A stretch of DNA of 64,000 nucleotides from Hydrogenovibrio marinus (GTDB taxonomy: Bacteria > Pseudomonadota > Gammaproteobacteria > Thiomicrospirales > Thiomicrospiraceae). Below are positions 3,888 to 64,000 of this stretch, one piece after another. A program made the translations under genes and the position numbers. The stretch's first letter is position 1. Each line of letters starts with the position of its first letter. Under the pieces are notes generated by a model, which was not told the origin of the DNA, ran no database searches, and worked only from the letters and a program-made list of their open reading frames with translations. The stretch is from assembly GCF_013340845.1 (NCBI RefSeq), contig NZ_AP020335.1:1302001-1366000 (forward strand), read 5' to 3'.

Positions 3888-3907
3888 CCCAACCTGGTAG
3901 AGATTTT
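3888..3907 (-). repeat. Dispersed 19-bp motif, copy 1 (C-form on + strand)
   Basis: Reads CCCAACCTGGTAGAGATTTT, ten bases after the stop of the upstream gene. The core CCCAACCTGG is intact. Compared with the consensus there are two extra bases between core and A/T tail. Strand is given for the G-form. Confidence 0.7.
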
Positions 3908-8766: not shown

Positions 8767-10938
8767 ATGACTCCCCAAGAACTTTATCTACAAGTCTTTA
8801 AAAAAGAATTTGACCACCAAGAAGACGATGCTCTCAGCTTTAAAGCTTGTGAAATTGCGGTTGAAGCAGAAGAATTACCAAAAGTAGCCCGAGTAAGAAG
8901 CACTGATGTCGCTGTTGTTTTGGCTGGACTAAATCTCGATAGAGATACCTTAATTGCGACGCTCTTAAGTGACGGCAATTTAGACGAAGCCTATCCCATC
9001 GAAAAACTGAAATCTCTCTTCAGTCCTAACATTGTTCAGATGGTTTCAGAAATTCGTCGCTTGAACGCCATCAAAGAATTTAACGCGGCCTCTGCTACCA
9101 ACGAAGTTCAAACCGAGCGCCTAAGGCAAATGCTATTAGCCATGACTTCAGACATTCGCATTATGATTGTCAAGTTAGCGTATCGCGTTGTGCGCCTGCG
9201 TAACCTAAAAAATGAACCTGATAACGTCAAGGAACAAATCGCCAACGAAACCCAGTTGATTTTTGCCCCCCTTGCCAATCGCTTAGGGATTGCCCAGCTC
9301 AAGTGGGAACTTGAGGATTTGTCCTTCCGCTACCTGAATCCTGAGCTGTATAAATCTATTGCTCAACAACTTGACTCAAAGCGTGCCGGACGAGAAGCCT
9401 TTATCAGTAACGTGATTGACACTTTGAAAGCAATGTTTCATGAAAAAAATATGGACTTCAAGATATCAGGTCGCCCGAAACACATTTATAGCATCTGGAA
9501 AAAGATGTCAAAAAAGAACCTTCCGATTGATGAACTTTATGATCTTCGAGCGGTTCGTATCTATGTGGATTCTATTGAGCAATGCTATGAAGTATTAGGG
9601 ATGGTTCACAGCCGTTGGAACTACATTAAAGATGAGTTCGACGATTACATTGCAAGCCCAAAGGAAAACGGTTACCAGTCAATTCACACCGTTATTATCG
9701 GTGCAGAAAACAAAACCGTTGAGATTCAAATTCGTACCTATGAAATGCATCACCACGCGGAATATGGTGTAGCGGCACACTGGCGCTACAAAGAAGGCGG
9801 CAAGAAGCTGGATGCGCGTCTTGAACAAAGCATCAACCTTGTTCGACAAATGCTGGAGTACAACGATAACCCGGATTTGTTGAATGAAATCAGTACAGAA
9901 CTTTTGTCTGAGCATATCTATGCAATGACGCCAACGGATGAAATCATTACGCTAAGTAAAGGCTCTACACCGCTGGACTTTGCCTATTATATCCATACCG
10001 AGCTTGGGCACCGTTGTCGTGGCGCAAAAGTTAACGGCAGAATCGTTCCACTTACCTATCAGCTGAAAACGGGTGATAAGGTTGAGGTGCTTACCGTTAA
10101 GTCTGGTGAACCGAGCCGCAACTGGCTAAATCCTAACTTAAATTATTTGGGAAGCAGCCGTGCACGTGCCAAAGTACGCCATTGGTTCAATCATCAAAAC
10201 AAAGAAGCCAACCGAGATGCCGGTGAAGCAATCTTCAATAAAGAATTGCGCCGTTTGCATGCTCAAGATTTTCATGTCGATCAATTGGTTCAGCAGTTCA
10301 AGTCCGAATCCGTATCAGACTTCTTTGAAGCGCTAGGTCGAGGTCAAATCAATGACCGACAACTGAACAGTGCAATTCAAAAACAACTGAAACCGCAACA
10401 AAGACACATTACATCTCAAGATCCGGCTAAAACCAAGGTTACTGATTCAATTCATTTGACCGACAACCGTCATGAGCCAGCAAGAGCTTATGTTATCGGC
10501 TCACCTCAACTAAAAACACTGTTGGCTCCTTGTTGTCACCCGACCGAGCATGACGAGATTATCGGTTATGTCACACGAGGTAGAGGGATTACCGTCCACA
10601 AAAAAGATTGTAATAATATTCTTAACCTGAGTTACGAAGAGCAAAAGCGCTTGATTGCCGTGTCTTGGACGCGACATCAAGAAGAGCTGGTTGAGACTTA
10701 CGAGGCCGAGCTGAGCGTGCTTTGCTTTGACCGAAAAGGTCTACTGCGAGATATCATGACTTTGTTGACATCAATGGACATTAATATTTTACGCTCTGAT
10801 ACGTCATCCGATAAATCCGATGGTACGGTAACAATGCAGTTTGTCTTAGAACTGGATTCACATATTAGCGTGGGGAATCTACTTGACCAGCTGGAGCAGA
10901 TTGATAACGTAGAAACCGCTTCAATTAACTTAAACTAA
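8767..10938 (+). CDS. relA: (p)ppGpp synthetase RelA
   Basis: Ribosome-associated stringent-response enzyme of 723 residues. The N-terminal HD region is degenerate, without an HD-ED hydrolase motif, which points to RelA and not SpoT. The synthetase domain has YDLRAVRIY and the acidic DEFDDYIASPKENGYQSIHT stretch (the EFDD form typical of RelA), then VEIQIRTYEMHHHAEYGVAAHW. A TGS domain follows (TPTDEIITLSKGSTPLDFAYYIHTELGHRCRGAK), then a Cys/His conserved region (LLAPCCHP) and a C-terminal ACT domain. It is a single gene with its own upstream region. The stop codon overlaps a copy of the 19-bp dispersed motif. Its partners in this window are a DksA-like protein and a tRNA operon with a GC-rich promoter discriminator. 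Confidence 0.97.
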   Translation: MTPQELYLQVFKKEFDHQEDDALSFKACEIAVEAEELPKVARVRSTDVAVVLAGLNLDRDTLIATLLSDGNLDEAYPIEKLKSLFSPNIVQMVSEIRRLNAIKEFNAASATNEVQTERLRQMLLAMTSDIRIMIVKLAYRVVRLRNLKNEPDNVKEQIANETQLIFAPLANRLGIAQLKWELEDLSFRYLNPELYKSIAQQLDSKRAGREAFISNVIDTLKAMFHEKNMDFKISGRPKHIYSIWKKMSKKNLPIDELYDLRAVRIYVDSIEQCYEVLGMVHSRWNYIKDEFDDYIASPKENGYQSIHTVIIGAENKTVEIQIRTYEMHHHAEYGVAAHWRYKEGGKKLDARLEQSINLVRQMLEYNDNPDLLNEISTELLSEHIYAMTPTDEIITLSKGSTPLDFAYYIHTELGHRCRGAKVNGRIVPLTYQLKTGDKVEVLTVKSGEPSRNWLNPNLNYLGSSRARAKVRHWFNHQNKEANRDAGEAIFNKELRRLHAQDFHVDQLVQQFKSESVSDFFEALGRGQINDRQLNSAIQKQLKPQQRHITSQDPAKTKVTDSIHLTDNRHEPARAYVIGSPQLKTLLAPCCHPTEHDEIIGYVTRGRGITVHKKDCNNILNLSYEEQKRLIAVSWTRHQEELVETYEAELSVLCFDRKGLLRDIMTLLTSMDINILRSDTSSDKSDGTVTMQFVLELDSHISVGNLLDQLEQIDNVETASINLN

Positions 10939-10955
10939 AATCTACCAGGTTGGGG
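10937..10955 (+). repeat. Dispersed 19-bp motif, copy 2 (G-form)
   Basis: AAAATCTACCAGGTTGGGG, the full 19-bp form. It starts within the last two bases of the relA stop codon. Confidence 0.8.
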
Positions 10956-22348: not shown

Positions 22349-22366
22349 CCCAACCTGGCAGATTTT
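22349..22366 (-). repeat. Dispersed 19-bp motif, copy 3 (C-form on + strand)
   Basis: CCCAACCTGGCAGATTTT, a perfect reverse complement of the first 18 bases of copy 4 at 23134. The pair flanks the DUF445 gene as inverted repeats. It lies 42 bases past that gene's stop. Confidence 0.8.
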
Positions 22367-23133: not shown

Positions 23134-23153
23134 AAAATCTGCCAGGTTGGGGG
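23134..23153 (+). repeat. Dispersed 19-bp motif, copy 4 (G-form)
   Basis: AAAATCTGCCAGGTTGGGGG, directly abutting the rluB stop codon and 12 bases upstream of the DUF445 start. It is inverted relative to copy 3. Confidence 0.85.
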
Positions 23154-36036: not shown

Positions 36037-36130
36037 TCCTTGCCATTTTCTCTCGTATTGCGATTGCGTTCAATCTGGATTGTATTCAGGTTGAACAAAC
36101 CCCAACCTTATTCTTTTTGCACCTGACTCA

Positions 36131-38626: not shown

Positions 38627-39217
38627 TTAGCTACAGTCTTCGATAAACCCTCTAACCTCGTCCCAAGACGCTTCTAAATGCTGAAAAGCATGATCCCCGC
38701 CTTCAAAAGCCAATACTTTTGAAGAACTTACTTCTCGATATTTTTCATAAGCAAACTCGTAAGGGATTACTTCATCCCCTTTATCCAACAATAATCGACT
38801 TGGTGTCGTTATGGCGCTAGGCGTTATGTACTGTTTTAACGATTCTATATAGGCTTCATCGATAACAATATGCTCCCCGGTTTTAGGATGATCATATTCG
38901 CCAATGTTTTGTTCAAAAATAGGAACTGGGTCAAGTGCAGGATTAACCATCACCAAAGGAACTGCATACAACTCAGCCAGATACTCTCCGTAAAAGCCCC
39001 CCATAGATGAACCAAAAATCTGCCAGGTTGGGGTTGTAGGCTTTAGCAATACCTCATGTTCAATTATCGTTTTTAAATAGGCAATGGATGCTTCGGGTGA
39101 GCTTTGCGGATAAGTCGGAACCAAAACCTCAATACCCAAGCTAGCAAACGCTTTTTTATACCATTGAGCTTTATGGCCTTCTCCACTGCTTAAAAAACCA
39201 TGCAAATAAAGAATCAT
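38627..39217 (-). CDS. yqiA: YqiA/YcfP-family alpha/beta hydrolase
   Basis: 196-residue esterase-like protein of the YqiA group. It starts MILYLHGFLSSGEGHKA, with the nucleophile Ser in IFGSSMGGFYGEYLA, and the likely catalytic Asp and His in LLLDKGDEVIPY and FEGGDHAFQHLE. Length matches the family. E. coli YqiA has esterase activity on short acyl-CoA and nitrophenyl esters; the natural substrate is unknown. Its start is only 17 bases from the start of the divergent recJ-like gene. A copy of the 19-bp motif is read here as PTWQIF. Confidence 0.88.
   Translation of the reverse strand: MILYLHGFLSSGEGHKAQWYKKAFASLGIEVLVPTYPQSSPEASIAYLKTIIEHEVLLKPTTPTWQIFGSSMGGFYGEYLAELYAVPLVMVNPALDPVPIFEQNIGEYDHPKTGEHIVIDEAYIESLKQYITPSAITTPSRLLLDKGDEVIPYEFAYEKYREVSSSKVLAFEGGDHAFQHLEASWDEVRGFIEDCS
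39014..39033 (+). repeat. Dispersed 19-bp motif, copy 5 (G-form, inside yqiA)
   Basis: AAAAATCTGCCAGGTTGGGG, the full consensus inside the yqiA coding region. On the coding strand it is translated PTWQIF. Confidence 0.8.
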
Positions 39218-39234
39218 GCTAAAATTTATTTCCT

Positions 39235-41058
39235 ATGCTAATGAATGCCAACGCCGAATCACTCAAAAAATTAGACCCGCAACAACCTGAAATTGTTGGG
39301 CGCCCTTTTTCTCAAAAAATATTTGATGCTGCAACAAAATTGGGACTGACCCCGCTTCAAGCTCGGCTTGTTGCCATGCGTTTGACGGATGCTGATTTTG
39401 AAGATGATAACATGACGGAAATGTTGGAAAAAATCGTTTTTCCGAAACTCAAATACCTCCAACACCCTCACGAACTTAAAAATGCAGAACAAGCGGCTAA
39501 ACATATTGCCGATGCCATCGAATCAGATGGACAAATTGTCTTGGCCACAGACTACGATACAGATGGTGTCACTTCAGCATGGGTCGCCACTCGTGCACTT
39601 GTAGACTATTTTCAGGTTGAGCCAGAGCGCATCACACACATCTTGGGTGAGCGTAGGTCCGGCTATGGTATCACTGATGATGTGGTAGATCGCATTCTAG
39701 CCATTGATAAGAAAATTGATTTGGTAATTTCAGCCGACCAAGGCTCCAGTGATGAGGCAAGAATTCAAAGGTTGGCTCAGCATGGCATTTCGGTTTGTGT
39801 CACAGACCACCACCAGATACCTGCTGACGGCACACCCAAAAGTGCTATCTGCACAGTCAATCCGCAACAGGAAGGTTGCGAATACGACAAAACGGTAGCC
39901 GGCTGTTTCGTTATTTTCTTAGTGATGGGGCAAACCCGCAAAGAATTGATTGACCGTGGTATCCTCCCCGCCTCATCTCCCTCGCTTAAAGACTTGGTTA
40001 TGAATGTTGCTTTGGGTACAGTCGCAGACAGCGTCAGCTTAAAAGGCGTCAATAATCGTGCAGTCGTGCAAGCGGGTCTTGCCATGATGAATGAATTGAA
40101 GCACCCTAGCTGGCAAGCCATGCATGCACTGAATGACAATAACCAACAGCCCTTTACGGCTGAATATCTTGGCTTTCAAGTGGCAACGCGCATCAATGCC
40201 GCAAGCCGTGTAAGCGATGTCACCACAGCTTTTCACTTCTTGAATGCTGAAGACTTCCATCAGGCGCAACAAATGTTGGATCAGCTGGAAATAGACAACC
40301 TCAACCGTCGAGAACAGCAAGAAACCATGTTATTACAGGCCAAACAAACTGCGGATGCTCTGTATTACCCTGGGAAGTTCACCATGGTCATCAAAATGCA
40401 GGGAAATGCGGGGATTCAAGGCATTATCGCTTCTCGCATCGGCGAACAATATGGATTGCCAACCATTGCCATGACGGATTTGGAAGATGGCTTCTTAGCG
40501 GGCAGTGGACGCGGCATCATTTCCAACATTGATTTACGCGAAGCATTTCAATGGATGTCCGACCAAGATAACGACCTGTTTGAATCAATGGGCGGACATA
40601 AAGGCGCCGCAGGCTGTATGATTCCGATTGAAAAGTTTGATGTATTTTCGGATTTGTTTGAACAGGCAATCCGCCATCAACTTGACCATGAAGTTCCAAT
40701 ATTCCAAATTGAAACCGATGGCCAGCTTGACCCTTATCAGCTAACGCCAAGCCTTTTAGAGGAACTAAACGTGCTGGAGCCATATGGAAGAGATTGGGCT
40801 AAACCTTTGTTTTATGGTGATTTTTGGATTCAATCTTGCCGAACAGTCGGACAGACTCAAACCCATCTTGCCTTCAACCTAAAAGCGTCAGATGGACGCC
40901 CGATTTCAGCAATCTTCTTTAACGCATTGGATTCCAATGATGAGGCAGTTCCATACCATACAGGTCAGGAAGTTCGTTGTGTGTATCAACCGGCATTGAA
41001 CCGGTATATGGGGTCAACCAGCCTACAACTCAGGCTGGTTCATGCAGAAGTGATTTAA
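39235..41058 (+). CDS. Divergent RecJ-like DHH-family exonuclease
   Basis: 607-residue DHH/DHHA1 protein related to RecJ, a 5'-3' single-strand DNA exonuclease. Motif I reads ATDYDTDGVTSAW, motif II SADQGSSDE (usually DNG), motif III VTDHHQIP, motif IV LGTVADSV, then NAASRVSD, and the DHHA1 motif GGHKGAAGCMI. The usual H-x-G-V-V-G-I-V-A box is altered to NAGIQGIIAS. These departures suggest a paralogue with changed properties, not the housekeeping RecJ. Start at 39235 or 39241 cannot be decided. It converges with thrC (4-base overlap) and diverges from yqiA. Confidence 0.85.
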   Translation: MLMNANAESLKKLDPQQPEIVGRPFSQKIFDAATKLGLTPLQARLVAMRLTDADFEDDNMTEMLEKIVFPKLKYLQHPHELKNAEQAAKHIADAIESDGQIVLATDYDTDGVTSAWVATRALVDYFQVEPERITHILGERRSGYGITDDVVDRILAIDKKIDLVISADQGSSDEARIQRLAQHGISVCVTDHHQIPADGTPKSAICTVNPQQEGCEYDKTVAGCFVIFLVMGQTRKELIDRGILPASSPSLKDLVMNVALGTVADSVSLKGVNNRAVVQAGLAMMNELKHPSWQAMHALNDNNQQPFTAEYLGFQVATRINAASRVSDVTTAFHFLNAEDFHQAQQMLDQLEIDNLNRREQQETMLLQAKQTADALYYPGKFTMVIKMQGNAGIQGIIASRIGEQYGLPTIAMTDLEDGFLAGSGRGIISNIDLREAFQWMSDQDNDLFESMGGHKGAAGCMIPIEKFDVFSDLFEQAIRHQLDHEVPIFQIETDGQLDPYQLTPSLLEELNVLEPYGRDWAKPLFYGDFWIQSCRTVGQTQTHLAFNLKASDGRPISAIFFNALDSNDEAVPYHTGQEVRCVYQPALNRYMGSTSLQLRLVHAEVI

Positions 41059-42530
41059 GCCAGAAACTTTAAGATTTCACTCTCAATATCTTGCTTATCA
41101 ATAACTGTTTTCTGTGCAACCGGTTTTGAGAACAAAGCTTCAATTTGCGAAGGAATGGATATTCCAGCTTTATCCGCAATCATTTTCAATGCATCACGGT
41201 CATGCTCATAAATATCTCCCGTCAGCGCCTTGGCAATAACAGGTGAAAACTTCGTCCATTCCGCGGTTGAATAAGCAATGGTTTTCAATGTTTTATCTTC
41301 ACGACAAGTGTCATAAGCCTTAAAACAGGTTGCCGTATGTGGACACATCAAGTAACCAACTGAAAACGCTTGTTGAATGTAGTTCATGCCCTCTTCATCT
41401 GTACAGAAGTCTGCCGCGAAAATCGCTTGCACTTGAGACAACTCTGCTTCGGTCAACTCGTAGAACTTATGGTTATCCAACTCAAACATCAACTCCTTCG
41501 TGCGTTCTGCTCCGAACAAATCGAACAACACGCGCTCAATATTAGAGGACTTCAAAATATCCATTGCCGGTGAAGTGGTTGGAATTACCGAAATCTCACG
41601 TAAATCATAACGACCGGTATTAATAAATTTGGTTAGGACATTGTTCATGTTCGAGGCGATGTGGATTTGTTTAACTGGCAAGCCCATCTTGAGGGCATAG
41701 TAACCGCCCAAAGCATTACCGAAGTTTCCACTTGGTACATTCAGGTAAACCTGATCACCCATCTGAATCGCGCCTTGACGAACCAACTCCAAATAGCTGT
41801 AGATATGGTATATGGTTTGGAAAATAATACGTCCGAAGTTAACCGAGTTGGCCGCTGAAAGCGAGATGTTATGCTCTTTCAGAGCATCACGGAATTTCTC
41901 AGAAACCAACAGGCTTTTCAGTGCTGTTTGAGCATCGTCAAAATCACCATGAATCCCAATAACTTTTAGGTTGGCAGCATCTTCTGTAACCATTTGCAGG
42001 CGTTGAACATCTGAAGTTCCACCATCTGGATACAAACAAGCTACTTGAACATTATCGCGGTTCTTGAAAGTTTCTAGTGCCGCAGGCCCTGTGTCGCCAC
42101 TGGTCGCTGCCAGAATCAAATACTTCTCATCGCGAGCTTGAGCAAGGGCTGACAGTACTTTACCGAAAGGCTGCAATGCCATATCTTTGAATGCACGAGT
42201 AGGTCCGTGGTAAAGCTCACTCACGAAAAGGTCGTCATATACTTTGACGACTGGAACAGGATTGCTTGGATCATCAAACTCATCATATAGTGCTAGCGCT
42301 TCATCAATAATCTTTTCTTCGATATCAATTTCAAACGCCTTCAAGACATCTTTTGCCAATGTCTTGTAACCTGAATTTACATGAGACATGAAAAAAGCTT
42401 CATCAAAGCTTGGTAAAGACTCAGGGGAATAAATGCCACCAAAAGAAGACATCGGGCTCAAGATCGCTTGAGCAAAAGAAATATGAGTTGGGCGCTGGCC
42501 ATCATTGCCACGGGTTTCGATAAATTTCAT
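41055..42530 (-). CDS. thrC: Threonine synthase
   Basis: 491-residue PLP enzyme converting O-phosphohomoserine to threonine. The PLP lysine lies in GPTRAFKDMALQPFGKV near residue 115, after SELYH. Further features are AATSGDTGPAALETF, CLYPDGGTSDVQRLQM, VNFGRIIFQTIYHIYSY and the phosphate loop VPSGNFGNALGGYYALKMGLP. Length and features match the bacterial long-form enzyme. It lies in an hom-[unknown]-thrC series on one strand, forming the threonine branch with alaC upstream. The stop overlaps the convergent recJ-like gene by 4 bases. Confidence 0.96.
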   Translation of the reverse strand: MKFIETRGNDGQRPTHISFAQAILSPMSSFGGIYSPESLPSFDEAFFMSHVNSGYKTLAKDVLKAFEIDIEEKIIDEALALYDEFDDPSNPVPVVKVYDDLFVSELYHGPTRAFKDMALQPFGKVLSALAQARDEKYLILAATSGDTGPAALETFKNRDNVQVACLYPDGGTSDVQRLQMVTEDAANLKVIGIHGDFDDAQTALKSLLVSEKFRDALKEHNISLSAANSVNFGRIIFQTIYHIYSYLELVRQGAIQMGDQVYLNVPSGNFGNALGGYYALKMGLPVKQIHIASNMNNVLTKFINTGRYDLREISVIPTTSPAMDILKSSNIERVLFDLFGAERTKELMFELDNHKFYELTEAELSQVQAIFAADFCTDEEGMNYIQQAFSVGYLMCPHTATCFKAYDTCREDKTLKTIAYSTAEWTKFSPVIAKALTGDIYEHDRDALKMIADKAGISIPSQIEALFSKPVAQKTVIDKQDIESEILKFLA

Positions 42531-42660
42531 ATGATCCCTGTTGATAAATTCTCGGTCGATGATCCATACAATAAACGATGGAGTTTCAATTATTTAACTA
42601 ACGGCGAATTATACCGGAAACATTGGTTTTTTTCGCCCTGAATCTACCGTGATTAAACGG

Positions 42661-43704
42661 TTAATCTGTATATTTCTGGATGGACTTTTTCCAGCGCCAG
42701 AATTTCTTCAAATGATTTGGTGTTAGGTAATAGCGATGACTCATCCCTAAATCCAGCAATAGTGAATGAATATCTCCATTTTGAAGTGCAGACAATATTG
42801 GAGCAAACCAGTTTTCTTCAAGCTGTTCTATCAGTGATAACCACTCATCTTGCATCATATCGGACATCGCTTCATCCAGCACCACCATCTGCTCGCTAGA
42901 GGGATTGTCGACCATTAATTTCTGCCAGGTTGGGTAAGTATCCGGTACGTTCATAAAATTCGATTGCGACAGTTTTGCCAAGCCCTTCAGATAAGCAAAA
43001 TCTCCCGCCAACACTGCATCTTGCCTTGCATAAATATCTTCTGTACGAAGCTGCCCTTCTCCCCATACCCAAACACCATTGATCTCAGGCAGACCTTTTG
43101 AACGACGCTCCTCGTTGACAGGATGTGTAAAAAACAACATTTGAACTTCGTTCATCAGTTGGCGCCAATAAGTGGCTGCATTACCCTCCGGCATGGCATC
43201 TTGTATGGATTGGTAACTCACCGCCTCAAGTGAATGCGTCTGTACATCTACGGGTTGAAGGATGCGGATAAACCAACGGAGGCTGCTCCCCAACACCAAC
43301 TCGACCCTATCTTGTTCAAAGTGCTTATTGAATGTTTCAACCAGCGCTTTTGCCTCGTCATCTTCTAACCCAAGCCCTTCTCCTGGAATCAATACCAACG
43401 TATCTCTATCGGGAATCAAATGAACAGGATCAACCCTTAACCAAAAATAGCTCGGATCAAAGCTCTCCAAATCCACGATTGCGGTGGTCGGCGCAACAGG
43501 CAGCGTACTTTTTTGATGAAACAAATAACTGGCATTATCCGAAAAGGAGATTTGATGCGTTTTATCTTTTGGCAGTTTATCTGCTTTAGCCAAAAGCGTT
43601 TCAAGCGCGGAGAAGCGTTTTCCTTCAAGCGCACCACCAGCTTCAGCAATATGCGCTGGTGTCAGAAGATTGGGAACCCACAATGTTAAAGCCGACGAGG
43701 TCAT
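42661..43704 (-). CDS. RpfE/COG4255-like protein (annotated phosphoglycerate mutase-like)
   Basis: 347-residue soluble protein. It resembles proteobacterial proteins labelled regulatory protein RpfE or cofactor-independent phosphoglycerate mutase-like. Visible stretches are LWVPNLLTPAHIAEAGG near the N-terminus, YFWLRVDPVHLIPDRDTLVLIPGEGL, INGVWVWGEGQL and a C-terminal FWRWKKSI. The metal-binding residues of an active iPGM are not apparent, so I doubt mutase activity. It sits between hom and thrC, a frequent neighbourhood for this family. A copy of the 19-bp motif is read as PTWQKL. Confidence 0.75.
   Translation of the reverse strand: MTSSALTLWVPNLLTPAHIAEAGGALEGKRFSALETLLAKADKLPKDKTHQISFSDNASYLFHQKSTLPVAPTTAIVDLESFDPSYFWLRVDPVHLIPDRDTLVLIPGEGLGLEDDEAKALVETFNKHFEQDRVELVLGSSLRWFIRILQPVDVQTHSLEAVSYQSIQDAMPEGNAATYWRQLMNEVQMLFFTHPVNEERRSKGLPEINGVWVWGEGQLRTEDIYARQDAVLAGDFAYLKGLAKLSQSNFMNVPDTYPTWQKLMVDNPSSEQMVVLDEAMSDMMQDEWLSLIEQLEENWFAPILSALQNGDIHSLLLDLGMSHRYYLTPNHLKKFWRWKKSIQKYTD
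42919..42934 (+). repeat. Dispersed 19-bp motif, copy 6 (G-form, inside gene)
   Basis: TTTCTGCCAGGTTGGG; the core is exact and the A/T end is degenerate. On the coding strand it gives PTWQK, in the same frame as copy 5 although the host genes are unrelated. Confidence 0.7.
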
Positions 43705-43754
43705 ACCCTCTCCTAAATGATTGAATACATAACAATAAGTTATTAAAAATTAAA

Positions 43755-43785
43755 CAAAAAAGCCTTCAATTAGAAGGCTTTTTCT
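43755..43785 (-). terminator. Intrinsic terminator after hom
   Basis: AGCCTTC and GAAGGCT form a 7-bp stem with a 5-base loop, flanked by A and T runs, so it can work in both directions. It lies about 28 bases past the hom stop and separates hom from the RpfE-like gene. Confidence 0.85.
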
Positions 43786-43812
43786 TTCAGGTGTCTTCAA
43801 GTAATTTCGAGT

Positions 43813-45129
43813 TTATTTGAACCCTGCTACTCGAATACGCATGATGTCACCATCAATCTCTTCCATACTCTCAAGTGCTGAAATCGCTTGATTGATTGTA
43901 GATTCCTGAACCTTGTTGGTAATCATCACAATCGTAGCATCATCTTCATTATCTGCACATGGCTCTTGGTGAAGCAATTCAATACTGATCTGCGATTGCG
44001 CCATGATTGAGGATACTTTTGCCAAAACACCTGCATGGTCTTTTGCGTAAAATCTTAGATAGTACGCTGACTTAATGTCATCAATGGCAACCACTGGTGC
44101 TGAAGTAAGCTGATCCAAAGCGAACCCTAGACCCGGTACGCGATCTTCTTGTGGTTGGCGCAATGCACGGATGACATCAATAATATCCGCTACAACCGCA
44201 CTTGCCGTTGGGCCTGCCCCTGCCCCTGGTCCATAATAAAGTGTTTGACCAACGTGATTACCGGCTACCATAACGGCATTCATGACGCCGTTCACATTTG
44301 CAATTAGAACAGAGTCTTTTACCAAAGTTGGGTGAACTCTCAATGAAAAGCCATTATCTGCTCGTGCTGCAATACCAAGATGTTTGATTTGGTAACCTAG
44401 TTTTTGTGCAAACTGGATATCATCCCCAGTGACTTTTGAAATCCCTTCTGTGTAGACCTTGTCGAACTGCAGTTCGATGCCAAAGGCAATGGAGGCCATA
44501 ATGGTCAATTTATGCGCTGCATCAATCCCTTCAACATCAAATGTCGGATCTGCTTCTGCATAACCTAATTCTTGCGCTTTTTTCAAAACTTGTGAAAAAT
44601 CAGCCCCCGGCTTTTTCATCTCAGTCAAGATGTAGTTCCCGGTTCCATTAATGATACCCGCCAGCCATTCGATTTGGTTAGCGGCAAGCCCTTCTCTCAG
44701 CGCCTTGATGATTGGAATACCACCTGCAACAGCTGATTCATAAGCAATCATTACGCCTTGAGCTTCAGCGGTCTTGAACAACTCGTTACCATGTTCGGCA
44801 ATCAAAGCCTTGTTTGCCGTGACGATATGCTTTTTGTTTTGGATTGCTTGTTCCAAACAGGTTTTCGCAAGCGTTGTCCCACCCATCAATTCAACAACAA
44901 TATCAACATTAGGGTTATTTACAACCGCCAAAGGGTCTGTCGTTAAATCAATGCCCGTTGTGTCAACAGGTCTTGCGCGATTAAGGTCTCTAACAGCGAT
45001 TTGCTCAACTTTAACGGAAACTTTTCCGCCCAATCGTCTTTGAATTTCGGTCTGAGTGGTTTGCAAAATATTGACCGTTCCACCACCAACAGTACCTAAC
45101 CCTAGAAGACCCAATCTTACTTCTTTCAC
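43813..45129 (-). CDS. hom: Homoserine dehydrogenase
   Basis: 438-residue monofunctional enzyme reducing aspartate semialdehyde to homoserine. Residues 1-25 hold the NAD(P) loop LGLLGLGTVGGGTV. The substrate region has VVELMGGTT, TANKALIAEHGNELF, AYESAVAGGIPIIKALREG, and the catalytic FDVEGIDAAHKLTIMASIAFG block. A C-terminal ACT domain (residues 355-430, FYAKDHAGVLAKVSSIMAQSQISIELLHQEP) suggests feedback control, probably by threonine. alaC is directly upstream and a terminator follows. High confidence. Confidence 0.97.
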   Translation of the reverse strand: MKEVRLGLLGLGTVGGGTVNILQTTQTEIQRRLGGKVSVKVEQIAVRDLNRARPVDTTGIDLTTDPLAVVNNPNVDIVVELMGGTTLAKTCLEQAIQNKKHIVTANKALIAEHGNELFKTAEAQGVMIAYESAVAGGIPIIKALREGLAANQIEWLAGIINGTGNYILTEMKKPGADFSQVLKKAQELGYAEADPTFDVEGIDAAHKLTIMASIAFGIELQFDKVYTEGISKVTGDDIQFAQKLGYQIKHLGIAARADNGFSLRVHPTLVKDSVLIANVNGVMNAVMVAGNHVGQTLYYGPGAGAGPTASAVVADIIDVIRALRQPQEDRVPGLGFALDQLTSAPVVAIDDIKSAYYLRFYAKDHAGVLAKVSSIMAQSQISIELLHQEPCADNEDDATIVMITNKVQESTINQAISALESMEEIDGDIMRIRVAGFK

Positions 45130-45181
45130 GAAAACTCCAATTCCTTACTCAATTTCTAATTTATAAAAAAAACGATAACTC

Positions 45182-46381
45182 TTAGACGTTGACGTTAATC
45201 AACCCGTCTTTGCGGAACATATCACGAATACCACGAATTGCCTGACGTGTTCTGTGCTCATTTTCAATCAAACCAAAGCGCACGTGATCATCTCCATAAT
45301 CACCAAACCCGATACCTGGCGCCACAGCAACTTTCGCTTCCGTTAAAAGCTTTTTAGAAAACTCTAACGAGCCCATCGCTTTGTACTCTTCAGGAATCGG
45401 TGCCCATACAAACATGGTTGCTTTAGGCGGTTCTACTTTCCAACCAATAGAGTTCAGTCCTTGACACAAAACATCACGTCTTGATTTGTACATATCGCTG
45501 ATTTCTTGAACGCAGTCCTGAGGCCCTTCCAATGCTGTAATGGCCGCCACCTGAATCGGAGTAAAGGTTCCATAGTCCAAATACGACTTCATACGTTTCA
45601 ACGCGTAGACCAACTCAGGATTCCCAACCATGAAGCCAACACGCCAACCTGGCATGTTATAGCTTTTAGACAAGGTATAAAACTCTACTGCAATGTCTTT
45701 TGCGCCTTCCACCTGCATGATAGAGGGGGCTTTATAGCCATCAAATGCGATATCCGCATAAGCCAAATCGTGGATAACCCAAATATTATGCTCTTTAGCA
45801 ATAGCGACCACTTTCTCGAAGAATGGCAATTCAACCGTTTGCGTCGTAGGGTTTCCAGGGAAGTTCAACACAAGCATTTTAGGTTTCGGCCAGGATTCTT
45901 TGATAGCCTTTTCCAATTCTTCAAAGAAGTCGACATCAGGCGTCATGCGAACATGGCGAATGTCTGCCCCCGCAATCACGAAACCATAAGGGTGGATAGG
46001 ATAAGCCGGATTCGGAACCAAAACCGTATCCCCTTTATCCACTGTCGCCAACGCCAAGTGCGCCAAACCTTCTTTAGAACCGATCGTAACAACCGCTTCG
46101 GTTTCATAATCCAGATCCACGTCAAACTTGGTTTTGTACCAGTTGCAAATGGCACGTCTCAGGCGAGGAATCCCTTGTGACACAGAATAACGATGCGTTC
46201 CTTCACGCTGAACCACTTCAATCAACTTATCAACAATGTGTTTCGGCGTATCTTGATCTGGATTCCCCATACCGAAATCGATAATGTCTTCGCCTCTGCG
46301 GCGGGCCTCGGCTTTTAACTCACCGGTAATGTTGAATACATAAGGAGGAAGTCGTTTAATTCTCTGAAAGTCGCCAGTCAC
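45182..46381 (-). CDS. alaC: Alanine transaminase AlaC-type
   Basis: 399-residue fold-type I PLP aminotransferase. It has [36 protein letters not shown] at the N-terminus, the cofactor Lys in [21 protein letters not shown] near residue 240, and the C-terminal substrate arginine in [13 protein letters not shown]. The start motif closely matches E. coli AlaC, which interconverts pyruvate and alanine with glutamate. The start is GTG. Order alaC-hom is common in proteobacteria. The peptide PGW also contains TGCCAGGTTGG by coincidence with the dispersed motif. Confidence 0.9.
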
Positions 46382-46541
46382 GGAAAATGAACCTTGTAAA
46401 AAAACGCACGAAATTGTGCAAATGCTGTGAGATAAATTTAAGCTGTTAATGATATACAGAAATGCCCGATTTCGTCAATGCAATTTGCGCTATAATTACG
46501 GCTAAATAAGCACTAAACATGAGATTTCGACGAGCTGTTTT

Positions 46542-46910
46542 ATGAAGTTTACCGAACACAGAGATTCCAACATCTTGACTGTCAAAAACTACCAGGTTGG
46601 GGGGGTCAAAGTAAATAATGATTGGATAAATCACAGTTGCTATCTAAACCAAAAAAATCTGGTCGAAAACTGGGCTTGTGACACCCTTGAAGCGCTTAGC
46701 GAAGCTCGCCTAGATGAACTGTTCCTACTACAGCCAGAAATCATTATTCTTGGTACTGGAGAAAACCAGCAATTCCCAGCACCCAAGTATTTTGCCTATT
46801 GTGCACAGAGAGGCATTGGGCTTGAAGTTATGGATAACTCAGCTGCTTGTCGAACCTACAATGTTTTGACTACAGAGCAGCGCGAGGTGGTACTGGCGCT
46901 GATTATTTAA
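46542..46910 (+). CDS. Mth938-like domain (DUF498) protein
   Basis: 122-residue protein of the Mth938/NDUFAF3 fold family. Conserved stretches are KNYQVGGVKVNNDWINHS, the ELFLLQPEIIILGTGENQQFPAPKYFAYCAQRGIGLEVMDNSAACRTYNVLTTEQREVVLALI block typical of the family. The function in bacteria is unknown; eukaryotic relatives help assemble respiratory complex I. It is divergent from alaC and convergent with nlpD. A copy of the 19-bp motif is read as NYQVGG. Confidence 0.88.
   Translation: MKFTEHRDSNILTVKNYQVGGVKVNNDWINHSCYLNQKNLVENWACDTLEALSEARLDELFLLQPEIIILGTGENQQFPAPKYFAYCAQRGIGLEVMDNSAACRTYNVLTTEQREVVLALII
46584..46605 (+). repeat. Dispersed 19-bp motif, copy 7 (G-form, inside gene)
   Basis: AAAAACTACCAGGTTGGGGG, one gap relative to the consensus. 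It is read in the + strand gene as NYQVGG, a frame and direction different from copies 5 and 6. Confidence 0.75.
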
Positions 46911-46919
46911 CCCTACAAA

Positions 46920-47705
46920 TCAGTGTAAAAATTTTTGATGGAATAACGGCTTAGCATCGACTTTTCGTCCATGATAACGCGCCTCGAAAAACAGTTGAGG
47001 TTCTTGTACATCGCCGGTTACGCCAACCGTCGCAATGAGAGCCCCCTTCTTCACTTCCTGCCCTTCCTTCACCAATAGACTGTCATTGTGTGCATAAATT
47101 GTAAGATACCCGTCATCATGCTTAATGATGATTAATCTTCCATAGTGCTCAATACCACTACCAGAATAAACGACTTCCCCCTGCTCTGCAGCATAAACGG
47201 CTTCGCCGACTGGAGCCTTAATTACTAAGGCATTGTTTCCAGCGGAATCACTCAAAAATTGGTAATTATATGGTTTACTCAACGGCCATCCAAAACCGGA
47301 TGTAGAATCCATTTTCGGCGCTTTATGCTCACTTTTAGAGAAGTCATGTACCAAAGGTGCTTTGGTGACTTTGCGGGGTAACACCAACTCTTGTTTGATG
47401 TACAAGGTATAAGGCGGGTGTAAACCATTAGCATCGGCCAGCTTCATCATATCCACACCACAACGGTCGGCGATAATACTAAGTGTGTCTCCGGAACGAA
47501 CCACATAGGGAGATGAGCACCCGGATGAACCGGATTGACTTCGTGGTGAAATACGATCTTCTTGACCAAACATTCTGTCTTGATCATTAAAGTATTGATC
47601 ACCACCATTCCAACCTCTGTACTTGGCTGGAGAGCATGCGTAGAGCGACACGCAAGAAAGCAACAAAAGCAAATTCCTAACGATGCGAAGGCTATTTCGT
47701 CTCAT
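46920..47705 (-). CDS. nlpD: NlpD-type LysM/M23 lipoprotein
   Basis: 261-residue outer-membrane lipoprotein. The signal peptide ends in a lipobox (VSLYAC; lipidated Cys near residue 24). A LysM domain (YVVRSGDTLSIIADRCGVDMMKLADANGL) spans about residues 67-112. A LytM/M23 domain follows from about residue 150 (NALVIKAPVGEAVYAAEQGEVVYSG ... QLFFEARYHGRKVDAKPL). The M23 metal residues are replaced (QLFFEARY in place of LHYEIR), as in NlpD and EnvC, so it probably activates an amidase instead of cutting peptidoglycan itself. It overlaps yqaA by 4 bases. No rpoS follows. Confidence 0.93.
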   Translation of the reverse strand: MRRNSLRIVRNLLLLLSCVSLYACSPAKYRGWNGGDQYFNDQDRMFGQEDRISPRSQSGSSGCSSPYVVRSGDTLSIIADRCGVDMMKLADANGLHPPYTLYIKQELVLPRKVTKAPLVHDFSKSEHKAPKMDSTSGFGWPLSKPYNYQFLSDSAGNNALVIKAPVGEAVYAAEQGEVVYSGSGIEHYGRLIIIKHDDGYLTIYAHNDSLLVKEGQEVKKGALIATVGVTGDVQEPQLFFEARYHGRKVDAKPLFHQKFLH

Positions 47706-48286
47706 GAATTCAAGTGTTTGATTAACAAGTAACCTAATACTAACACAATTGTTCCATAGCCTAAATAATCAACCGAACGTCGAATTTGGGCCTCATATTT
47801 CTCGCCACCTTTTTTCATTAAAAAGGCGACTAGATAAAAGCGTGCACCTCTACCAACCAAAGACGCAATGATAAAAGGCAAGATTGCTAAGTGCATCGCA
47901 CCCGAAGCAATGGTAAAAAGCTTGTATGGAATAGGGCTAAAACCAGCTAAAAACACCACCCAAAAACCATATTCATTGAAAAAGCCTTCTACTTGATGAT
48001 ATTTATCAAGGTAATGCATTGACTCAATAATAGGCAGCACAGCGTCCAGCATCAAGTAACCAATTAAATAACCGAATATCCCACCGAATAGCGAACCTAG
48101 TGTAGTAATCAAAGCAAAGCGATAGGCTTTTTCAGGTTGGGACAGTGCCATCGGCATTAACATGACATCTGGAGGGATCGGGAAAAAAGAAGACTCAGCA
48201 AAACTCATTCCGACAAGATACCAAGGTGCTTTAGGGTGTTTCGACCAGCTAATTGCCTTGTCGTATAGTTTGGTGAATATTCTCAT
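47702..48286 (-). CDS. YqaA-family inner membrane protein
   Basis: 194 residues from the ATG at 48286, five bases after the pcm stop; the frame extends to 48352 but that overlaps pcm. It belongs to the SNARE-associated (VTT/DedA) superfamily, YqaA branch: APWYLVGMSFAESSFFPIPPDVMLMPMAL, YRFALITTLGSLFGGIFGYLIGY and FFNEYGFWVVFLAGFSPIPYKLFTIASGA. About four to five membrane segments. DedA-like proteins help lipid carrier flipping. It lies between pcm and nlpD, with ATGA overlap to nlpD, so it is part of the surE operon. Confidence 0.9.
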   Translation of the reverse strand: MRIFTKLYDKAISWSKHPKAPWYLVGMSFAESSFFPIPPDVMLMPMALSQPEKAYRFALITTLGSLFGGIFGYLIGYLMLDAVLPIIESMHYLDKYHQVEGFFNEYGFWVVFLAGFSPIPYKLFTIASGAMHLAILPFIIASLVGRGARFYLVAFLMKKGGEKYEAQIRRSVDYLGYGTIVLVLGYLLIKHLNS

Positions 48287-48291
48287 AATGG

Positions 48292-49023
48292 TTATTCTGA
48301 CTCCGTCACTAGGCCTGTTTTCATTGGAACAAACAACACTTCGCCCAAACACTCTTCTTTGACACCGGTCGATGTCTTGATGAAGCCGTATAAGTACTGT
48401 TTCTCTTCCCCTATCGGCATAATCAAACGACCATTTTCACAGAGTTGTTCAATGAGCTCTTCGGGGACTTTAGCAGGTGATGCCGCTGAAATAATACCAT
48501 CAAAAGGTTTGTGCTTAGGCCAGCCCCAATGCCCATCAGACAAGGTAAAGTCAATGTTATGGAGTTCAAGTTTTGCTAGAACGTTCTGCGCACGGTTCAG
48601 TAAAGGTTCAATACGCTCCACACTGTAAACGTGCTTTGCCATTAGTGACAAAATTGCCGTTTGATATCCTGAGCCAGTCCCGATTTCCAATACCTTATAA
48701 AGAGGGCCGTTTTGAAAAAGCCAAGATGTCATTTTAGCAACCACCCAAGGTTGCGAAATAGTTTGGCCATAACCGATCGGAAGCGCCGTATCCTCATAAG
48801 CACGAGTCGCCATCGCTTCATCCAGAAAAAGATGTCTTGGTGTTACTCGGATGGCATTCAACACATCCGAATCATTAACACCATGGTCGATAAGTCTTTG
48901 CACCAACCGATTACGGGTTCTTTGTGAAGTCATCCCAAGCCCTTGGTTTTCTCGGAAAGCTTCATTAGGATAAATAACTTGTTGTTGCGTGAAGGTAGAA
49001 AGTTCTGAAAAGTCGAGTTTCAT
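48292..49023 (-). CDS. pcm: Protein-L-isoaspartate O-methyltransferase
   Basis: 243-residue SAM-dependent enzyme that starts repair of isoaspartyl residues in damaged proteins. Seen are QRLIDHGVNDSDVLNAIRVTPRHLFLDEA, LPIGYGQTISQPWVVAKMT, the SAM loop VLEIGTGSGYQTAIL near residue 108, and AAKVPEEL-like AASPAKVPEELIEQL with RLIMPIGEEKQ. The N-terminus is slightly longer than the E. coli enzyme (208 residues). It lies 6 bases after surE, in the conserved surE-pcm pair. Confidence 0.95.
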   Translation of the reverse strand: MKLDFSELSTFTQQQVIYPNEAFRENQGLGMTSQRTRNRLVQRLIDHGVNDSDVLNAIRVTPRHLFLDEAMATRAYEDTALPIGYGQTISQPWVVAKMTSWLFQNGPLYKVLEIGTGSGYQTAILSLMAKHVYSVERIEPLLNRAQNVLAKLELHNIDFTLSDGHWGWPKHKPFDGIISAASPAKVPEELIEQLCENGRLIMPIGEEKQYLYGFIKTSTGVKEECLGEVLFVPMKTGLVTESE

Positions 49024-49029
49024 CGCCGT

Positions 49030-49773
49030 TTAATTAAACCAATCTGAAAGTTTATTGAGCATATCATAATGCGTTAAATCTATTTTCAACGGCGTCACGG
49101 ATGCATAACCGTTTTCAACAGCATAAAAATCTGTTCCTTCACTGGCATCTTCAGCTTCGCCAGCAGGACCGATCCAAAAAATATGGTTCCCTCTGGGATC
49201 CTGATGTTTGACAACCCGCTCCGAGCAATGTCGCTTACCCAACCTGGTCATTTTTATCCCTTTAAGGTCTTCTACTGGGATATCAGGAACGTTAATATTC
49301 AAGATTGTATCGGCATCTAGGGGCATGTGATGAAAATCTTTCAAAAACAGCCTCAAAACCTCACTTGCTGTTTCAAAGTGACGGTCACCACACAATGAAA
49401 TCGCGATGGAAGGTTTTCCTAAAAAACGCCCTTCTGTCGCCGCTGCAACTGTTCCGGAATATAGAACATCATCCCCCATATTCGCGCCGGCATTAATACC
49501 GGAAATCACCATATCAGGCTGATAGTCCAAAGCACCATTCACCGCAAGGTGGACACAATCTGTAGGCGTTCCATTAACGCAGAAGATGTGCTCTTCCAGC
49601 TGTGTCATGCGTAAAGGTTCTGTGAGGGTGAGAGAATTGCTGGCAGCACTTCTATTACGGTCAGGAGCAACAATCAACATCTCGGAGTGGAAGTCGGTAG
49701 AATTTAGACATTCATATAATGCACGTATTCCCGGTGCGTTATAGCCGTCATCATTTGAAAGCAGGATTTTCAT
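49030..49773 (-). CDS. surE: 5'/3'-nucleotidase SurE
   Basis: 247 residues from the ATG beginning MKILLSNDDGYNAPGI; the open frame to 49848 is an upstream extension. SurE is a metal-dependent survival nucleotidase and exopolyphosphatase. The active site includes Asp8-Asp9 (NDDG), NRSAASNSLT, VNGTPTDCVHLAVNG and SGINAGANMGDDVLYSGTVAAATEG. It is first in surE-pcm-yqaA-nlpD. A copy of the 19-bp motif is read as MTRLGK. It is divergent from the smr gene. Confidence 0.95.
   Translation of the reverse strand: MKILLSNDDGYNAPGIRALYECLNSTDFHSEMLIVAPDRNRSAASNSLTLTEPLRMTQLEEHIFCVNGTPTDCVHLAVNGALDYQPDMVISGINAGANMGDDVLYSGTVAAATEGRFLGKPSIAISLCGDRHFETASEVLRLFLKDFHHMPLDADTILNINVPDIPVEDLKGIKMTRLGKRHCSERVVKHQDPRGNHIFWIGPAGEAEDASEGTDFYAVENGYASVTPLKIDLTHYDMLNKLSDWFN
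49238..49255 (-). repeat. Dispersed 19-bp motif, copy 8 (C-form on + strand, inside surE)
   Basis: CCCAACCTGGTCATTTTT; the core is exact. In surE it is translated as MTRLGK, a third reading frame compared with copies 5-7. Confidence 0.7.
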
Positions 49774-54837: not shown

Positions 54838-56100
54838 TCATCTCTTAAACTTTTCATTCGTAGAATACCCCAATACAGCAGCAACCTCATCTTCTATCTC
54901 AATAACAGGCCAACGATTTCGGTTCCAGTATACGATCTGGTTGTTATTCAGCCACTTCTTTAGCCCTGGAATTTTTTCAAAATCCCCCAGTTCGATGGAT
55001 CTAAAAACCACTGGGCTTTCCAGCCAGCGATCTGCAACTTGGTGATCAAGCATGCCTTTTTCATCAAAGTGTAAAAACTCAAAGTTTTCAGGAATATACC
55101 CCAACCTGTAAGATTCTTCGAAATTGACCAGAAAATAAATCTTTTTACCCTCTACCCGAATCTCGGAATGGTTTGACATCATTCTCTTAGGGTGCGCATT
55201 CGGGTTATTTAAGTACAAAACCTCTTTCAACCATTGATAAATAGTTTGATTTAACTCTACCTTCGGTTGCGATTTTTGCAACCAATAAGAAATCAGGTTT
55301 TTTTGTCTAGCCCAACTTTCGCCAGACATTGTAGACAAATCTAAACTAAAACTAGAGCTTTCAACTCTTGAGAGGTCTTGTTCACCAAGCTCATGCAACA
55401 ACTCAACAGCTTCAGAAGCATTACCCGACAACCTTGCAATTGCTTCATTAAATTTTGGCCATTTGTTATAGATGTTGGGTAGCAGTTGATTCCGAATATA
55501 GTTCCGGCTAAATTGATTTTCTTGGTTACTTGGATCTTCTATCCAAGATAAATTATTTTCTAGCAAGTAGTCTTTAATTGCTTGTGGCTCTACCGACAGC
55601 AGTGGACGATAATGTTCAATAGCTTCTTTTTCGACATGCCAGACTTTAAGGTAATTCATCGCACGCAAACCGAATAGCCCTGTACCACGAACAACATTCA
55701 ACAACACAGTTTCTGTTTGATCTTGTGCGTGGTGCGCGGTTACCAAGACCCTATTCGTTTGCTTTTGAACCCAACCAAACAAAGCTTCATAGCGTCTTTC
55801 TCTGGCGACCGCTTCAACACCTTTACGATGCTTGGCTTCAATTTTAACTTTCAATTCTTCAAAGGCTATGCCATTTTCTCGACTGAAATCATTACAAAAT
55901 CTTCCCCACGAGTCCGATTCCGCTTGAAGTTGATGATTAATATATATAGCTGTCAGACGATGCTTTTCAGCTTTTTGAGCTAAACAATAAAGAAGAGCGA
56001 TGGAGTCTTTACCACCACTAAATGCAACAACAATCTTTTGTTGAGAAGGTAACTCCGCTAAAAAATGGTCAATTGCCCTTTCAACGGAGTTAGAAGACAT
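54838..56100 (-). CDS. tilS: tRNA(Ile)-lysidine synthetase
   Basis: 420-residue ATP-pyrophosphatase that converts cytidine 34 of tRNA-Ile(CAU) to lysidine, allowing AUA decoding. The PP-loop VVAFSGGKDSIALLY is near residues 24-38. The family blocks TAIYINHQLQAESDSW, VTAHHAQDQTETVLLNVVRGTGLFGLRAM, RPLLSV and IEDPSNQENQFSRNYIRNQLLP follow, then the C-terminal domain. Length is normal. It lies 14 bases after accA, an order seen in many gammaproteobacteria. A one-mismatch copy of the 19-bp core lies inside at 55099-55118. Confidence 0.95.
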   Translation of the reverse strand: MSSNSVERAIDHFLAELPSQQKIVVAFSGGKDSIALLYCLAQKAEKHRLTAIYINHQLQAESDSWGRFCNDFSRENGIAFEELKVKIEAKHRKGVEAVARERRYEALFGWVQKQTNRVLVTAHHAQDQTETVLLNVVRGTGLFGLRAMNYLKVWHVEKEAIEHYRPLLSVEPQAIKDYLLENNLSWIEDPSNQENQFSRNYIRNQLLPNIYNKWPKFNEAIARLSGNASEAVELLHELGEQDLSRVESSSFSLDLSTMSGESWARQKNLISYWLQKSQPKVELNQTIYQWLKEVLYLNNPNAHPKRMMSNHSEIRVEGKKIYFLVNFEESYRLGYIPENFEFLHFDEKGMLDHQVADRWLESPVVFRSIELGDFEKIPGLKKWLNNNQIVYWNRNRWPVIEIEDEVAAVLGYSTNEKFKR

Positions 56101-63405: not shown

Positions 63406-63425
63406 CCCCCAACCTGGCAGATTTT
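63406..63425 (-). repeat. Dispersed 19-bp motif, copy 9 (C-form on + strand)
   Basis: CCCCCAACCTGGCAGATTTT, full consensus. Its A/T end overlaps the stop codon of the cheV-like gene, the same relation as copy 2 to relA. Confidence 0.85.
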
Positions 63426-64000
63426 ATGCAAAATACTTTTCCTCGACCTTTTTGATGGTCTCGACGATTAAAGCAGTATCGACCTTCCCTACAAAAAAGT
63501 CAGCCCCCATCGAAAGTACTTCTCGGCTATTGTTTTCACTGGTCATAGAGGTATGAACAATAATCGGTAGCGCACTTGTCTTTTTATTTTGGCGGATTTC
63601 TTTAATCACTGTGTGCCCTGAAGCAACTGGCATCTCCAGGTCGGTAAAAACCATTGAAACACTGCTCGTATCTTCAAGACTATCCAAGTAGTTCAACAAC
63701 AACCTACCATTATCAAACGATTGATATTTCAACCCTAACTGCTCAAACACCATGCCCATGTATTTTTGTATTGCCTTGCTGTCCTCAGCAAAGAGAATGG
63801 TTCTCTCTTTAACTTGATCACAAAAATCATAACTTTCATTACCCACCGATTTTGCTGAAGAAAAGATTTTTTCAGCCATAGTAGGCATAGCTTCAATTAG
63901 TAGCTTTTCAATATCTAGGATGAAGCAAAGCTTGTCACTGTTTTCGAGGTAGGTGTGGTTGATTACTTGATTGGTATTTACATTGATATTGTAGTTTGAT
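63424..64000 (-). CDS. cheV: CheV-type chemotaxis coupling protein, cut by the window edge
   Basis: The C-terminal receiver domain (about 125 residues) has ILFAEDSKAIQKYM, the phospho-acceptor Asp in VFTDLEMPVASG, and the conserved Lys in FVGKVD. Translation upstream of the methionine at 63888 stays open to the window edge and reads INVNTNQVINHTYLEN, then SDKLCFILDIEKLL, the end of a CheW-like domain. A CheW domain fused to a receiver is CheV, which couples chemoreceptors to the kinase CheA. So the ATG at 63888 is internal, and the true start lies beyond 64000. This and the FlgE-like small protein hint at motility. Confidence 0.88.
   Translation of the reverse strand, partial: SNYNINVNTNQVINHTYLENSDKLCFILDIEKLLIEAMPTMAEKIFSSAKSVGNESYDFCDQVKERTILFAEDSKAIQKYMGMVFEQLGLKYQSFDNGRLLLNYLDSLEDTSSVSMVFTDLEMPVASGHTVIKEIRQNKKTSALPIIVHTSMTSENNSREVLSMGADFFVGKVDTALIVETIKKVEEKYFA

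Follow-up and report, generated by a model that had tools for sequence, protein, structure and literature searches.

Why should one 19-letter word be written into four unrelated genes of the same sulfur bacterium? The question arises from a 64,000-nucleotide stretch of the Hydrogenovibrio marinus chromosome (the window; positions 1302001-1366000 of NZ_AP020335.1, a single contig of 2,491,293 bp referred to here as G000), in which an initial annotation had placed copies of the word AAAATCT[G/A]CCAGGTTGGG in yqiA, an RpfE-like gene, a Mth938-like gene and surE. All four copies are present and encode the peptides described (Table 1), and the accompanying comparison with uptake sequences fits the anatomy of the word well. 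From this likeness to known systems we infer, with a probability of about 0.72, that the word is one dialect, the local one, of a DNA uptake sequence used across the family and that it works like one; what is new is its family, its spelling, its length and the existence of palindromic relatives. NCBI assigns Hydrogenovibrio to the Piscirickettsiaceae; in the counts below, "family" denotes 62 genomes grouped as one family, and comparisons within the genus cover 11 Hydrogenovibrio genomes (G000 and ten others).

Across the whole G000 genome, 394 sites match the word with at most three mismatches, compared to 3 for a reversed-pattern control, and they are divided almost equally between the strands (183 forward, 211 reverse). 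Within the window, the core CCAGGTTGGG is matched 13 times at one mismatch or fewer, against a mean of 2.5 in shuffled sequence, and none of 100 shuffles reaches 13. To describe the word more closely, we used a 464-kb sample of G000 (the window and 20 further stretches of 20 kb each), which holds 74 sites at three mismatches or fewer: 47 exact, 16 with one mismatch, 7 with two and 4 with three. Their profile shows 18 strong positions, with about 1-2 bits of information at most positions of the word; position 19 is G or T in 92 percent of the sites, and position 8 is G in 69 and A in 30 percent. The edges are sharp at 19 bp and the flanks nearly flat, apart from a weak A/T enrichment about 6-10 bp upstream. 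The density is about one word per 6 kb, and counts per 20 kb have a mean of 3.20 and a variance of 2.46; the sites are therefore evenly spread. The only sampled stretch without a site (L124) carries what we take, from the sequences, to be a cluster of ribosomal-protein, RNA-polymerase and translation-factor genes.

The sites favour gene ends. Genes in the 464-kb sample were called as greedy longest open reading frames (ORFs) rather than by a trained gene finder, which makes the following placement counts approximate. Only 29 of the 74 sites lie wholly within genes, though 0.906 of the sampled bases are coding. The remaining 45 fall into convergent gaps (22), the two kinds of tandem gap (14 and 6) and divergent gaps (3), in 39.2 kb of intergenic DNA of which convergent gaps contribute 5.6 kb and divergent gaps 11.0 kb. 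The median distance from word to stop codon is 18 bp (42 sites with a flanking stop). The 29 genic sites use all six frames, 14 running with the gene (7, 2 and 5 per frame) and 15 against it (7, 3 and 5); with G at position 8 the word contains no stop in any of the six frames, and with A it contains a stop in one.

These positions bear on the possibility that the word is a regulatory or segregation site, such as a promoter operator or an element of the Chi, KOPS or matS type. Hundreds of near-identical, sharp-edged sites do imply one strict reader, as such an element would have. The sites are not promoters, because only 3 of the 45 non-genic ones occupy divergent gaps, and not Chi or KOPS, because the leading strand is not preferred (40 leading and 34 lagging sites in the sample, with origin and terminus located roughly by GC skew). 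Nor do they mark out a domain, given the even counts per 20 kb, and the one siteless stretch is the presumed ribosomal and transcriptional cluster just mentioned. We consider a function of this kind very improbable.

Close pairs of words (gap under 80 bp) are all inverted, both in G000 (7 of 7) and in its relative G007 (10 of 10). Three head-to-head pairs in G000 have predicted folding energies of -40.7, -39.9 and -28.6 kcal/mol (z -6.6, -7.9 and -5.0), and the folded pairs end in a U run where the AAAA is mirrored.

The word is one of several spellings within the family. At two mismatches or fewer from its degenerate form, it is abundant in 3 of the 62 genomes (384 copies in G000, 410 in G012 and 361 in G007), while the other 59 hold 0-2 copies each. 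The first two genomes write it with TTGGG, and the G007 sites listed spell ...CCAGGCTGGG, a CTGGG form, almost throughout. A scan of 2.9 million viral contigs yielded five with the exact TTGGG or CTGGG word (L267-L271), each with one exact copy in the stretch examined and, in L268, one extra copy at 3 mismatches; this gives no more than a hint that recently acquired DNA may be poor in the word. From k-mer counts in 200-kb samples of four further Hydrogenovibrio genomes (G005, G006, G008 and G014) a palindrome emerged, CCAGGCCTGG, flanked on both sides by A/T tracts 4-8 bp out that are clearest in G005 (64-84 percent A). Its form RCCAGGCCTGGY reaches at least 100 copies in 27 of the 62 family genomes, where the control reaches that level in none; these belong to Hydrogenovibrio (7 of 11) and to three other genera (10 of 32, 9 of 9 and 1 of 1). 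Whole-genome counts found no copy in G000, G007, G012 or G013. Of 369 sampled gammaproteobacteria, the 365 that lie outside the family contain at most 18 copies; the palindrome is family-restricted.

We searched for further dialects in small samples (1 to 42 kb) of 17 other family genomes, leaving out G002 and G016 (under 2 kb). Clear words appeared in five (G013, G022, G026, G061 and G052); the remaining samples of this size gave no clear word. The word of G013, CCAGGGGTGG, has 236 copies genome-wide when counted as AAAATCGCCAGGGGTGG through a degenerate pattern; that of G022, ACAGGCCGGG, has 252 when counted as AACTCAACAGGCCGGG through the same pattern, which also matches 128 times in G036. 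The word of G026, ACCGGCCGGT, is again palindromic and reaches 1025 copies (control 1). A cross-table on the samples shows each dialect to be abundant in its own genomes and off-dialect words to be few: 2 CTGGG forms in G000, 5 CTGGG forms and 1 ACCGGCCGGT in G014, and 3 ACAGGCCGGG in G008. Lined up by eye, the six spellings share the frame nCnGGnnnGn.

The homologue alignment proposed by the initial annotation, which we ran against the ten other genus genomes (G013 was left out at YqiA, where its match stopped short of the word site), found residues varying with the word in three of the four proteins. At YqiA, the codons are CCA ACC TGG in G000 and G012, CCA GCC TGG in G007 and CAG GCC TGG in G005, G009 and G014. 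Among the seven palindromic genomes, G009 and G014 have the exact palindrome core at this site, G005 is one letter off, and the core is absent in G006, G008, G010 and G011. The RpfE-like gene shows the same series (CCA ACC TGG in G000 and G012, CCA GCC TGG in G007, CAG GCC TGG in G005, G006, G008, G009 and G010), with the exact core in 5 of 7 palindromic genomes and the other two one letter off. In both proteins the TTGGG word gives PTW, the CTGGG word PAW and the palindrome QAW. In Mth938, TAC CAG GTT GGG (KNYQVG) accompanies the TTGGG word and TAC CAG GCT GGG (KNYQAG) is found in G007; all seven palindromic genomes have CCA GGC CTG GTC AAA, which is the palindrome and encodes PGLVK, in the context YQPGLV (YRPGLV in G010). 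On these alignments, YqiA, the RpfE-like protein and Mth938, unrelated as they are, change residues in step with the dialect.

SurE behaves differently. Its codons are ACC AGG TTG GGT in G000 and G012 and ACC AGG CTG GGT in G007, a synonymous change, and only this Leu codon (TTG or CTG) tracks the dialect. Every genome encodes TRLG, or TRQG in two, and all seven palindromic genomes do so with other codons and without a word, an outcome that the initial annotation had named as refuting its view; here the protein residues preceded the word. The view that selection or spread at the DNA level is the simpler reading is thus borne out by three of four proteins, and the argument against a common peptide function as the explanation holds for those three and fails for SurE. 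The reading frames, which the initial annotation had called different, number three over the four copies: YqiA and the RpfE-like gene share one (antisense frame 2), Mth938 is read in sense frame 0 and SurE in sense frame 2.

The same comparison decides how much of the pattern might come from conserved peptides or from chance. SurE speaks for such an origin of intragenic copies, as does one of the 13 core matches, at position 45643 of the window, which we rejected as a word since it lies in the conserved YNMPGW stretch of an aminotransferase. The residues that shift with the dialect in the other three proteins, together with the genome-wide excess of 394 sites over 3, speak against it. Chance and peptide conservation are ruled out for the YqiA, RpfE-like and Mth938 copies and retained for SurE and the match at 45643; as a general account of the intragenic copies they have hardly any probability.

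Re-spelling in place extends beyond the window. In DNA alignments from G000 to G007, 17 of 18 aligned sites carry G007's own word, compared to 3 of 1425 random windows, and in the reverse direction 17 of 17 sites carry the other dialect's word (random windows, 4 of 1427). Between G000 and G012, 46 of 47 sites keep the word (random windows, 12 of 2720). The corresponding figure from G007 to G012 is 37 of 40, and G000 to G007 is the cleaner test because the G012 loci had been picked for holding the word. Pairs of palindromic genomes gave only 2-3 aligned sites each, too few to judge. For the larger step from the TTGGG and CTGGG words to the palindrome, we tried 107 genic sites lying beyond the window region, of which 21 independent ones could be aligned to the palindromic samples. 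The exact palindrome core lies within 6 codons at 6 of these 21, compared to 4 of 736 places chosen at random (p 4e-8, Fisher test); this is the de-duplicated figure, a raw 54 of 125 being inflated by the four window genes and by repeated loci. Because 15 of the 21 sites are without the palindrome in the species examined, in-place re-spelling over that distance is common and not the rule.

These alignments also bear on whether the word might be a short repeat, mobile or dispersed, that propagates by self-insertion. Gaps of 6-7 codons do occur at the word in two alignments from outside the window, and a hairpin segment found between some tail-to-tail pairs (described below) is present or absent between species at the same site. 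Set against this, the codon alignments of the RpfE-like gene and Mth938 with palindromic species are mostly ungapped across the word, no gap occurs inside the word in 105 of 125 non-independent site-genome pairs, the letters of the word vary by substitution with the dialect, and its flanks hold no conserved sequence. With so few gaps at the sites, a mobile repeat is disfavoured, and we regard it as a very unlikely origin overall, though insertion may apply at some places.

In-place re-spelling would suit any reader of DNA, including an intracellular one. A protein inside the cell might bind or methylate the words, which would then be comparable to HIP1, the highly iterated palindrome of cyanobacteria with its orphan methyltransferases, and kept for chromosome upkeep, with dialects that follow the specificity of that protein. 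CCAGG, a site of the CCWGG type, occurs in four of the six words, and CCWGG is a known type of enzyme specificity. HIP1 and the commonest word among the relatives are both perfect palindromes, and HIP1 too has strain variants (PMC4390886); as a palindrome over-represented throughout the genome and replaced by other forms in particular strains, it resembles CCAGGCCTGG and ACCGGCCGGT (PMC4390886). The window's word, unlike HIP1, is asymmetric, 19 bp long and located at gene ends, and at about 1-2 bits for most positions it is long for a methyltransferase site. Neither ACAGGCCGGG nor ACCGGCCGGT contains CCWGG, and in G000 and G007 the words lie at gene ends and form inverted pairs, as is the habit of uptake sequences. 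A HIP1-like role is accordingly unlikely in our estimation, though it is the chief rival.

For the uptake sequence that we favour, the closest precedents are the DNA uptake sequences (DUS) of Neisseriaceae and the uptake signal sequences (USS) of Pasteurellaceae. As far as the accessible portions of the sources go, DUS form eight dialects with a core CTG and are confined to one family (PMC3630211), and they are mostly intergenic, scarce in new genes and stringently conserved, with inverted pairs serving as terminators (PMC2397512). The Hydrogenovibrio word resembles what these portions describe in its hundreds of stringently conserved copies on both strands, its inverted pairs that form terminator-like hairpins, its location mostly outside genes and at permissive places within them, and its tree-following family dialects with a short common part (PMC3630211, PMC2397512). 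It differs in belonging to another family, in its letters, in its long asymmetric 19-bp form, in being palindromic in many relatives and in its lower density. DUS themselves are not known to be palindromic. USS, in the part of the literature available, comprise two types with the core GCGG in one family, are not palindromic and have the extended forms AAAGTGCGGTCAATTTT and AACAAGCGGTCAAATTT (PMC12616744). The likeness to them lies in a core and an A/T tract joined in one word, two or more types per family and terminator pairs (PMC12616744, same part); letters, family and palindromic relatives differ, and Hydrogenovibrio's family has at least six spellings. We found no report of an uptake sequence in Thiomicrospira or Hydrogenovibrio in the open-licence literature, where a search for the letters of CCAGGCCTGG likewise returned no bacterial-genome title among the matches listed. 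To our knowledge, functional uptake sequences are known from only two families, and for this reason the origin and change of uptake languages have offered little for comparison.

In the mechanism we envisage, competent cells would prefer DNA that carries their own spelling, and word-bearing alleles would enter cells and recombine into the chromosome more often. In the long run, copies would fill the genome on both strands, mostly just after genes or at places within genes that tolerate the residues. Should the word reader shift its specificity, sites near the new spelling would be re-spelled, and residues of unrelated proteins would change together. Uptake would then be the selective force, and a pilus protein presumably the reader of the word.

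Of the natural-transformation machinery, ComEC is found in 56 of the 62 family genomes and ComEA in all 11 genus genomes (one below the cut-off). A cluster of three pilin genes (G000, C1:2036090-2037975), beside conserved genes and common to the genus, is a putative source of a minor-pilin receptor of the ComP, FimT or ComN sort and a candidate only. Identities of the three pilins from G000 to G012, G007 and G005 are 79/50/38, 95/75/43 and 91/60/46 percent, compared to 95/94/88 percent for a neighbouring gene. The pilin with 95/75/43 percent (L262:10318-11130) may be taken as the best receptor lead and as no more than a candidate; a PHROGs scan of one of the three pilins returned nothing useful. 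In G005, a different cluster (L266, 1683-12561), which we take from its sequences to be of the general-secretion (type II) type, contains four pilin-like genes, and the N_methyl search shows none such in G000, G012 or G007.

Several results weigh against an uptake sequence, beginning with the 15 gene sites lacking the palindrome described above. The ComEC and ComEA families also match E. coli and others among 14 controls, which makes them weak evidence. No protein with the GspH/FimT pilin domain of Pfam was found in the 11 genus genomes, and the N_methyl pilin search gave only three hits each in G000, G012 and G007, all from the three-pilin cluster. In 28 of the 62 family genomes, surveys and small samples identified no word, though most of these genomes have ComEC. 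Of four genomes examined for the placement of the palindrome, G005 and G006 show an excess in convergent gaps; the gene-end preference was not seen in G014 or G008.

How the dialects arose can be approached from the genus tree. In a concatenated tree of seven proteins, a split with a support of 100 sets the seven palindromic genomes apart from G000, G012, G007 and G013. The tree covers the genus without an outgroup, and one inner node has a support of 67; with midpoint rooting, these four genomes form one clade, in which G007 stands beside G000 and G012. The palindrome is probably ancestral, because it also occurs in three other genera, and the one-sided words derived. It shares its left half with the window's word (an A tract, two or three letters, R and CCAGG), and the right halves differ. 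We infer the order palindrome, then CTGGG, then TTGGG from the tree and from how widely the palindrome occurs. In a fuller history, a third family would have its own uptake-sequence language; the palindromic ancestor of its words could be read from either side, and in one Hydrogenovibrio clade the symmetry was broken to give one-sided words. Since in-place re-spelling affected many sites, the switch of dialect could then be followed from one site to the next, and the protein series QAW, PAW, PTW would be its fossil record. We judge this joint reading as likely to be right as wrong.

If correct, the finding of six or more spellings in a third family, two of which are palindromes, together with in-place re-spelling would make the origin and switching of dialects testable. 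It would raise the questions of which letters matter to the reader, whether palindromic words imply that the reader is itself symmetric, and to what extent protein sequence gives way to selection at the DNA level. The word looks like a self-recognition tag for uptake of the species' own DNA; an uptake sequence here would suggest natural transformation in these chemolithoautotrophs and supply words to try when transforming them.

Coordinates of the copies within the window are compiled in Table 1.

Table 1. Copies of the word in the 64,000-nucleotide window (positions in window coordinates).
Feature	Position (strand of word)	Sequence	Context
Word copy in yqiA	39015..39032 (+)	AAAATCTGCCAGGTTGGG, exact	Gene on -; antisense, TPTWQIF
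Word copy in RpfE-like gene	42917..42934 (+)	AATTTCTGCCAGGTTGGG	Gene on -; antisense, YPTWQKL
Word copy in Mth938-like (DUF498) gene	46584..46601 (+)	AAAAACTACCAGGTTGGG	Gene on +; sense, KNYQVG(G)
Degenerate copy in surE	49238..49255 (-)	AAAAATGACCAGGTTGGG, 3 mismatches to consensus	Sense, IKMTRLG(K)
Word copy	3888..3905 (-)	AATCTCTACCAGGTTGGG	10 bp 3' of ORF ending at 3877
Word copy	10937..10954 (+)	AAAATCTACCAGGTTGGG	Overlaps stop codon of ORF 8767-10938 (+), convergent gap
Exact word copy	22349..22366 (-)		Between ORFs 21404-22306 (-) and 22408-23121 (-)
Exact word copy	23134..23151 (+)		2 bp 3' of stop of ORF 23154-24107 (-)
Degenerate copy	55100..55117 (-)	AGAATCTTACAGGTTGGG, 3 mismatches	Inside ORF 54838-56100 (-); may be chance
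Exact word copy	63408..63425 (-)		Overlaps stop codon of ORF 63424-63888 (-)

Pfam matches support the gene names YqiA (UPF0227), Mth938 (DUF498) and SurE; the RpfE-like protein has only a weak match, to phosphoglycerate mutase (E 5e-5). A near-match at 36101-36118, from a scan that allowed 5 mismatches, was discarded as too degenerate.

In G000, G007 and G012, some tail-to-tail word pairs enclose a recurring hairpin segment of 37-40 nt (CTCGCCTTACCCCTTCGGGCGGCGAGTGCTT...), located at L125:1448-1524 in G000, at L151:9405-9481 and L152:14435-14508 in G007, and in G012 opposite L149:6271-6311. One species can carry the segment between the words of a pair where another has a 4-nt gap instead; it is perhaps a tiny mobile element nesting in word pairs. 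In one G000 gene (L262:129-713), just 3' of that for leucyl-tRNA synthetase, the word spells the N-terminus of a lipoprotein, MTKVVAKICQVGGG, its own part reading KICQVG; we presume this protein to be LptE-like. The G007 samples (L141-L160) contain a repeat family unrelated to the word, with 12-mers such as GGCTAGGTCTGA in up to 28 copies. Finally, the window carries two near-identical 84-bp direct repeats (14909-14992 and 15162-15245; 98 percent alike) with the appearance of duplicated tRNA genes.

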